DNA from: Bernardetia sp.
GTDB lineage: Bacteria; Bacteroidota; Bacteroidia; Cytophagales; Bernardetiaceae
NCBI RefSeq assembly: GCF_020630935.1
Contig: NZ_JAHDIG010000008.1
Coordinates: 1-64,000 of the forward strand
Direction: 5' to 3'
DNA: 64,000 nucleotides
Shown one piece after another: positions 51,826 to 53,290 of this stretch. Each line of letters opens with the position of its first letter. Within the stretch, counting starts at the first letter, position 1. The translations under genes were made by a program, and so were the position numbers. Under the pieces are notes generated by a model, which was not told the origin of the DNA, did no database searches, and saw only the letters and a program-made list of their open reading frames with translations.

Positions 51826-51899
51826 GACAAAAAATGTAATCTGAGCTTGCATATAAAAAGGTCAGTTTACCAACATAAAAGTTAAACTGCATCAAAAGT

Positions 51900-52200
51900 A
51901 TGTCGGTACTGCCCTATTGGGCTGACCTAATTGGAAAATAAGGTCAGTCTCGTAGAGCCTTTAGGTTTGTATTTATTATAGCAAGTTGTAAAGTACATAC
52001 TTTTTTCTTTTTTTGTAATAAAGAAAAAACGTGGTAGAAAAGTAGGCGAATTATCGCTAGAGGTAGACAGAAAGGTCTATGGTCTGAACAAATCCTGCTT
52101 TTCATTTACCTGTAAGGTTCAACTAACATTTTGAGTTTATAGGCTCGTTAGCAAGGTTTTAAATAACACAGATTTTTCCACGTCTTTTACTGATTTATCT
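51900..52200 (+). ncRNA. candidate bridge (seek) RNA region in the IS110 left end
   Basis: IS110 recombinases are guided by an RNA made from a non-coding end. This long left end contains TGTCGGT (51901-51907, complement of the right target half) and AGGTCAG (51941-51947, same as the left target half), and again AAAGGTC (52071-52077) next to GGTCTG (52081-52086). CTAACATT (52123-52130) equals the last eight bases of the right end before the crossover CAG. Several hairpins are present (for example 51911-51922 GCCC/GGGC and 52047-52058 GCGA/TCGC). RNA ends and the true guide pair are not determined. Confidence 0.4.
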
Positions 52201-52221
52201 TCCATAAAACTACTATCGATT

Positions 52222-53235
52222 ATGCTCAATTACAAATACTTTGTTGGCGTAGATGTAAGTAAATCTACTTTGGACATCGCACTTTATCAAGGTCAGCACT
52301 ACCTAAGTCATCATCAAATAAAAAACGAGGTCTCCTCTATAGAAACTTATTTTGCTAACCTATCTTCTACTTACTCTGACTTTACTCCTTCTCAAGTCTT
52401 ACTATGTTTAGAGAATACGGGCAGGTACATGAACTTTCTACTTTCTTCACTAAGTAGTCAGTCCTATTGCATTTGGATAGAAAATGCTTATTCTATTAAA
52501 CATTCATTAGGTCTACGAAGAGGTAAAAACGATAAAGTAGATGCGATGAGAATAGGAGAGTATGCTTCTCGCTTTTCTGATAAAGCACTTTTATATAAGG
52601 CTAGTAGCCTCTCTGTTCGAAAACTAAAGGCAATGCAATCTGTAAGAAGTCAGCTTGTAGAAAGTAGAAAAAGACTACTTACTGACCTCAAAGAAGCACA
52701 GAAATATGACCAAAAAGAACTTTATCACATCAAAAAGAAAGCTACTTATCGGACACTCAAAGCATTAGATAAAGATATTGAAAGTGTTGAAAAACAACTA
52801 GAACAAGTTATAAAGGAAGATACCCAACTTACTCGTATCATGAAGATACTCTGTTCTATACCAGGTATTAAAAAAGTAACTTCTATTGCTCTAATTATTG
52901 TTACAGAAGCATTTACTAAGTTTGAGTCTGCTAAACAATTAGCCTGTTATTGTGGAGTAGTACCCTTTGAAAATCGTTCAGGAACTAGTCTTAGAAAAAA
53001 AAGTAGTGTCTCCAAAAAATCTGACAGAAAGATGAAAGCACTATTAACCCTTTGTGCCAGATCCATTACACGAACAAAGGGAGAACTAAACGACTACTAT
53101 CAAAGAAAACTAAAAGAGGGAAAAGAAAAAATGGTCATTTTAAATGCTATTCAAAACAAACTTATTCTTAGAGCCTTTGCTTTAGTAAGAGATAATAGAA
53201 TGTATGAAAATAAATATCAAAATAAAGTTGCATAA
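52222..53235 (+). CDS. IS110-family transposase (DEDD recombinase)
   Basis: A 337-residue recombinase. The N-terminal RuvC-like DEDD domain has D11 in GVDVSKSTLDIA, E64 in LENTGRY, and D104/D107 in KNDKVDAMRI. A helical coiled region follows (about 130-200). The C-terminal Transposase_20 domain has SIPGIKKVTSIALI, YCGVVPFENRSGTS (Ser nucleophile region) and RKMKALLTLCA. The frame is intact from ATG to stop, so the element may be active. Confidence 0.93.
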   Translation: MLNYKYFVGVDVSKSTLDIALYQGQHYLSHHQIKNEVSSIETYFANLSSTYSDFTPSQVLLCLENTGRYMNFLLSSLSSQSYCIWIENAYSIKHSLGLRRGKNDKVDAMRIGEYASRFSDKALLYKASSLSVRKLKAMQSVRSQLVESRKRLLTDLKEAQKYDQKELYHIKKKATYRTLKALDKDIESVEKQLEQVIKEDTQLTRIMKILCSIPGIKKVTSIALIIVTEAFTKFESAKQLACYCGVVPFENRSGTSLRKKSSVSKKSDRKMKALLTLCARSITRTKGELNDYYQRKLKEGKEKMVILNAIQNKLILRAFALVRDNRMYENKYQNKVA

Positions 53236-53290
53236 TCCCTAACATTCAGACCGACAAAAAAAGGGCAAAATAGTTTTTATATTGGTATAA

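Follow-up and report, generated by a model that had tools for sequence, protein, structure and literature searches.

Results

An IS110-group element splits a dispersed palindromic repeat

The window analysed here, the whole 64,000-nucleotide stretch from Bernardetia sp., carries an IS110-group element of about 1289 bp at 51959..53247 on the forward strand, as placed by empty sites, with one C ambiguous at the ends. The element and its flanks comprise the following features:

51868..51958, + strand: left portion of the repeat into which the element inserted, a dispersed palindrome of subfamily A; from genome copies, empty copies, covariance model R2 and the consensus fold
51950..51958, + strand: left target half TCGTAGAG and core C; from empty sites and the junctions of relatives
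52222..53235, + strand: IS110 recombinase, 337 aa, with DEDD_Tnp_IS110 and Transposase_20 domains; from Pfam and phmmer
53239..53247, + strand: left donor CTAACATT and core C, the right end of the element; from the junctions and right-end identity
53248..53290, + strand: right target half AGACCGAC and the remainder of the split repeat; from empty sites

The boundaries were set by comparison with the flanking repeat as it occurs in 18 further copies, of which 17 lack the element and one, on C48, keeps a remnant of it. Empty copies with a clear junction, all from the same genome, run ..CTCGTAGAGC-AGACCGA.. without interruption; the window reads ..CTCGTAGAGC/CTTTAGG at the left junction and ..CTAACATTC/AGACCGACA at the right (slashes mark junctions). 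In a longer view, the empty copies read ..AGTCTCGTAGAGC AGACCGA; at the left junction the window has ..AGTCTCGTAGAGC/CTTTAGGTTTG, at the right one CCCTAACATTC/AGACCGACA. Since the empty copies continue across the junction, the element spans 51959-53247, and 51868-51958 and 53248-53290 are the two parts of one palindromic repeat that it has split. An earlier note on this DNA had placed the left end near 51868, which is wrong, and the target halves it gave were wrong too.

The start CTTTAGG is common to the genus relatives of the element, and a left-end remnant in G002 begins at the same base. The pattern CCTTTAGGTTYGTA is present in six of seven genus genomes, at 19 places in total, and its reversed form at none. 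In C-type elements a single C only is common to both junctions; the left guide of the window element has G there. A second copy in the genome, L070 (G000:C48, from about 22727), is internally deleted, keeps its last part only and occupies the same point of another repeat copy. Judged from its sequence, it apparently arose by deletion between AGAGCCTTT at the left junction and AGAGCCTTT within the recombinase gene. Left-end scars from a recombinase cutting its own guide DNA were also considered. This idea was dropped because L105 and L106 end in or near the target loop and L104 (after about 26 bases), L092 and L093 end elsewhere, which leaves no consistent end point among remnants.

The recombinase matches PF01548 (E 1.4e-14) and PF02371 (E 5.2e-21), giving a DEDD recombinase with a C-terminal Transposase_20 domain as in the IS110 group, and phmmer aligned it to IS621 (8wt6, E 1.3e-20) and ISCro4 (9t56, E 6.3e-22). 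The ISCro4 alignment spans GVDVSK, CLENTG, NDKVDA and the NRSG serine, which have catalytic roles. Ahead of the start codon lie 263 non-coding nt (51959-52221) and past the stop codon 12 nt (53236-53247), the long left end and short right end of the IS110 group.

The repeat itself is widespread. A DNA search with 51850-52221, in which 37 of 146 candidates were scored, showed that fragments of 51868-51958, some as long as about 91 bases, recur at scattered places in this genome. Covariance model R2, built from 14 copies, gave 86 matches there, which were merged by hand to at least 60 distinct places because palindromes match on both strands; with 150 of 2818 candidates scored, this count is a lower bound. 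As DNA, the 71-base repeat consensus folds with a z of -5.98 against shuffles, and TGTCGGT, AGGTCAG and their complements form its hairpin arms.

The repeat also has imperfect inverted ends outside the palindrome (in the window 51868-51887 and 53273-53290, TACCAA.ATAAAA.. and ..TTTTTATATTGGTATA), so that some copies resemble a MITE with a palindrome inside. Two clear Y1_Tnp (PF01797) genes occur in the same genome (G000:C6:10641-10985 and G000:C3:90091-90435); these may encode REP-type transposases, through which the palindromes could have spread. A general rule that all targets are hairpin feet was rejected, as joined targets fold just somewhat better than shuffles (n=28, mean z -1.18; 16 below -1 and 5 below -2).

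The left end encodes a predicted bridge RNA

Within the non-coding left end, the following RNA features were assigned:

52030..52163, + strand: bridge RNA target- and donor-binding region; from covariance model R1, built without the window
52037..52046, + strand: 5' strand of the closing stem of the target-binding loop, GAAAAGTAGG; 10-bp helix with 52094-52103
52054..52062, + strand: left target guide TCGCTAGAG, followed at core position 52063 by G, not C; from alignment, target tracking and genome sites
52064..52079, + strand: hairpin TAGAC-AGAAAG-GTCTA between the target guides, holding AAAGGTC; from folding and stem comparison
52078..52086, + strand: right target guide TATGGTCTG, complementary to CAGACCATA, which shares 2 bases at its 5' end with the hairpin; from tracking and genome sites
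52094..52103, + strand: 3' strand of the closing stem of the target-binding loop, CCTGCTTTTC; pairs with 52037-52046
52123..52130, + strand: left donor guide CTAACATT; from identity with the right end at 53239-53246 and tracking
52133..52146, + strand: hairpin of the donor-binding loop, GAGTTTATAGGCTC; from the consensus fold and R1
52148..52156, + strand: right donor guide TTAGCAAGG; from sequence and conservation among relatives

The earlier note had proposed a bridge RNA in this left end and suggested a covariance model as a check. Model R1, built from 14 relatives with the window left out, matched 52030-52163 at 49.4 bits (E 1.7e-9), the next best match reaching 9.0 bits; R1 carries 4 pairs only. 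The left ends of the relatives, whose proteins are 35-44% identical, align into one architecture: closing stem, left guide, a hairpin of 13-17 bases, right guide, the other strand of the stem, and then a donor loop composed of left donor guide, hairpin and TTAG..AAGG. The order in which target guides precede a donor guide, also put forward earlier, is the one seen in the alignment.

In most relatives the closing stem differs in sequence and is kept complementary. Over 17 elements the mean helix was 9.5 with the element's own strands versus 6.9 with swapped strands, and short stems by this measure were found in L075 (4), L013 (6) and L099 (6). Single-sequence folding was weak (z -1.41 and -1.02), and RNAalifold returned 4 consensus pairs on the 14-sequence alignment because MAFFT shifted the closing stem by one base in distant members. 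None of the 4227 Rfam families matched in the window above its gathering score. A scan of genome contigs for relatives gave 5 loci and a search of viral contigs none; one relative, L047, comes from a Bacteroidota MAG.

All the strings on which the earlier proposal was built are present: TGTCGGT (51901-51907), AGGTCAG (51941-51947), AAAGGTC (52071-52077), GGTCTG (52081-52086) and CTAACATT (52123-52130 and 53239-53246). The left end having been misplaced, half of the guides drawn from them were wrong. TGTCGGT and AGGTCAG, offered as a first guide pair, lie outside the element in the flanking repeat, and they match the flanks because they are palindrome arms of the split repeat. From the second pair, GGTCTG holds its place as part of the right target guide, and AAAGGTC falls in the hairpin that separates the target guides, across its loop and 3' arm. 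The left target guide TCGCTAGAG at 52054-52062 had been missed. The donor guide CTAACATT was correctly recognized: it is identical to the right end and sits where a donor guide is expected, and the agreement exceeds chance, with 0.009 matches expected in the left end and a match in 185 of 20000 shuffles. The earlier observation is thus partly confirmed and its interpretation partly supported.

Guides track targets and donors

A comparison of guides with target and donor among homologues had also been suggested, and the corrected guides track both. Non-core matches were summed over 13 elements (17 element-copy rows). Left target guides made 70.6 of 104 matches versus a permuted mean of 39.8 (sd 6.8), and right target guides 61.4 of 78 versus 30.1 (sd 4.8); in each case 0 of 20000 permutations was as good. 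The set omits L092, L093, L094, L099 and L100 (right end missing or not extracted), the G042/G056 clade (other core offset) and L048 (same locus as L012). The target-guide offsets had been set by hand from hairpin length after the alignment was viewed, and an offset scan of 9 elements served as a less supervised check. It peaked at the predicted positions of the left (z 4.26) and right (z 5.08) target guides on the expected strands, with runner-up offsets at z 2.9 and 3.2. The target guides covary with their target on opposite strands.

Individual fits vary. The best cases (L047, L012 and L075) match at 9/9 left and 6/7 right positions, and poor left matches occur in L004 (4/9), L008 (4/9) and L009 (3/9). 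The left guide of L025 was mis-cut in the permutation (offset 22, not 20), scoring 1/9 where the correct cut gives 7/9, an error that works against the result. In the window element itself, just 5 of 8 non-core positions agree between left guide and left target (TAGAG), and CG is recovered if a one-base gap is allowed.

On the donor side, left donor guides agree with left donors in 101 of 104 cells over the 13 elements versus 82.0 when permuted (0 of 20000 as good), so that the left donor guide covaries with the element end. The window differs from its relatives in donor guide and right end together (CTAACATT versus ATAG....). Indels kept a left-donor scan that used the right target guide as its anchor from showing a clear peak, and an anchor at the aligned column replaced it. 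By eye, the right donor guide can be matched to the left end CCTTTAG: AAGG pairs with CCTT and, if 2 nt are skipped, TTA can pair with TAG.

Three left ends show rearrangements. In L004 (G001:C1, upstream of 4336558) about 22 extra bases break the left donor guide and the target guides fit poorly; its sequence suggests that it is perhaps a dead copy. In L074 (G002:C1, about 5197848-5198204), 87 bases of the left end, between the left target and a left target guide nearly identical to it, are duplicated in tandem; when guide and target are equal, they form a direct repeat that can recombine. In L075 the left target guide region is tandemly duplicated within the bridge RNA (GTAACACCAAC twice).

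The guides match dispersed host palindromes

Read together, the window left guide TCGCTAGAG and CAGACCATA, to which the right guide is complementary, spell the target TCGCTAGAG-C-AGACCATA, in which the core C is taken from the target and the guide itself has G. This 18-base target has 2 exact host sites and 43 sites within 3 mismatches, mostly in these palindromic repeats, versus 1 for a reversed control. For its inner 11 bases, TAGAGCAGACC, the genome has 45 sites, where base composition predicts 0.8 and the reversed control gives 0. Twenty-seven of these sites fall within the 60 repeat places, and most of the remaining 18 in a sister palindrome close to TCGGTACTGACCTTAATTAAGTTAGGTCAGTCTCG(C/T)TAGAGCAGACCATAAATA. 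The element itself sits in subfamily A with a shorter guide match, TAGAG-C-AGACC. Based on these counts, the window guide is cognate to the palindrome family and fits the sister subfamily best.

For L075, a 13-base target has 67 sites in its own genome (G002) and 22-73 across the six genus genomes tried (controls 0-1), with 0 sites in G039 and 1 in G044. The 11-base guide target of L006 has no exact site in its own genome, G002, where five L006 copies match the left target at 5-7 of 9 positions. Two further observations concern these elements: ACACCAACAACGG, which belongs to a second hairpin repeat that is also widespread, has 22-73 sites in each of the genomes G000-G003, G005 and G006, and the left target AACACCAAC is common to L075, L007, L012 and L047.

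A candidate promoter is split between the element ends

Two short motifs lie at opposite ends of the element:

51962..51969, + strand: TAGGTTTG, candidate -7 box (TAnnTTTG); from the published consensus
53228..53230, + strand: TTG, candidate -33 box; from TTG at the corresponding place in relatives

In the available text of PMC7366714 and PMC2483708, Bacteroidota promoters are described with a -7 motif TAnnTTTG and TTTG near -33. When the circle is modelled, the right-end TTG lies 20 bases ahead of TAGGTTTG (19 in one clade). The full motif of the TTG-N20-TAGGTTTG type is present in 21 of 29 rows in the circle versus 1 of 29 in situ, rows that include near-identical copies; TTG, read from the printed rows, is present in 29 of 29, and eight carry other -7 letters. 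These sequences point to a candidate Bacteroidota-type promoter motif that would be completed only in the circular RE-LE junction. For IS621, the excerpts of PMC11208160 report a sigma70-like promoter that arises at the junction of the circle. No Bacteroidota-type junction promoter was found in the available parts of PMC11208160 and PMC11187229 or, elsewhere, in titles and abstract openings, which is not proof of absence.

Discussion

These results make it very probable that the left end encodes the bridge RNA of an IS110-group element, in which a target loop would specify host palindromic repeats and a donor loop the element's own joined ends. The target-binding loop, in which a hairpin separates the left guide TCGCTAGAG from the right guide TATGGTCTG, would specify TCGCTAGAG-C-AGACCATA, and the donor-binding loop (CTAACATT and TTAGCAAGG) the joined element ends. 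Excision would give a circle joining right and left ends, whose junction would complete the Bacteroidota-type promoter TTG-N20-TAGGTTTG and may then transcribe the bridge RNA. RNA and recombinase would together bind and recombine a repeat copy, inserting the circle at the C of GAGC/AGACC.

The version in which the element starts near 51868, with TGTCGGT and AGGTCAG or AAAGGTC and GGTCTG as guides, has in its favour that the strings exist and match the flanks. However, 51868-51958 is a dispersed repeat found elsewhere without the element, relatives begin at CTTTAGG, and AAAGGTC lies in a hairpin, off the aligned guide position. The empty sites refute this version, of which GGTCTG and CTAACATT alone survive, and we give it almost no credence. 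Scarcely more plausible is that guide and target resemble each other as a by-product of descent, related elements lying in related sites. Several genus elements are closely alike and four share one left target, but permutation inside the same set never did as well (0 of 20000), the signal peaks at one offset per half on the expected strands, and the window target and donor differ from those of relatives with guides that differ along with them.

That the left end is a relic, an inactive copy with a decaying bridge RNA, deserves more weight, although we think it rather unlikely. The genome has one full copy and one deleted remnant, and the left guide mismatches the core position and its own target in part, as described above. 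Against this, the recombinase is open over 337 aa and aligns to IS621 and ISCro4 through the catalytic region, the stem, donor guide and promoter motif are intact, and the guide still matches 2 host sites perfectly. Returning to the bridge-RNA reading, the sequence tests made here place the predicted window RNA in the known IS110-group bridge-RNA kind.

IS elements have reportedly been found inserted in REP sequences, as Tobes and Pareja are said to have described in 2006 (PMC1525189). The window element shares with these the site-specific insertion into dispersed extragenic palindromes; it differs in repeat family and host group, and here the guide sequences probably responsible are identified. 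In the available text of PMC11208160, the IS621 bridge RNA of E. coli is likewise a left-end RNA with the target loop ahead of the donor loop, its 5' guide equal to the top-strand left half and its 3' guide complementary to the right half, with donor guides arranged alike. Pairing is also discontiguous there, the 9-nt right donor guide being set against 7 donor bases with a skip, and the RE-LE junction forms a promoter (here a candidate motif) and the target lies in palindromic repeats (REP in IS621). Unlike IS621 as described in those parts, the window element has a Bacteroidota-type TTG/TAnnTTTG junction motif instead of a sigma70-like one, and one C clearly common to both junctions instead of a CT core; its guide sequences and its repeat family are also different.

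A similar likeness holds for the seekRNA of ISEc21, an IS110 element, which, in the excerpts of PMC11187229, comes from an upstream non-coding region with a bottom-strand match followed by a top-strand match; ISPa11 targets REP sequences there, as the window element targets a palindromic repeat. Unlike the RNAs of that study, the window RNA is predicted from sequence, and the order and downstream location described for IS1111 elements do not apply to it. By word count, the phylum name Bacteroidota does not occur in the two founding papers.

In summary, this analysis provides a corrected, testable guide map for a predicted bridge-RNA system, and the elements of one genus supply natural examples of retargeting. 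The analysis also shows that a palindromic target can mislead a guide search, as the arms of a split target mimic guides outside the element. The junction motif leads to a proposal of how, in bacteria whose promoters are not of the sigma70 type, IS110 elements may come to make their RNA only when excised. More broadly, and with our judgement evenly balanced, a Bacteroidota IS110 lineage may live in host extragenic palindromes, repeatedly rewriting its guides to follow whatever palindrome family is abundant as the donor guide co-evolves with the ends, and a split sigma-ABfr-type promoter (TTG at the right end, TAnnTTTG at the left) would confine expression of the RNA to the excised circle. The window copy, whose guide fits one subfamily and which sits in a sister subfamily, would then represent either a tolerated mismatch or retargeting in progress.
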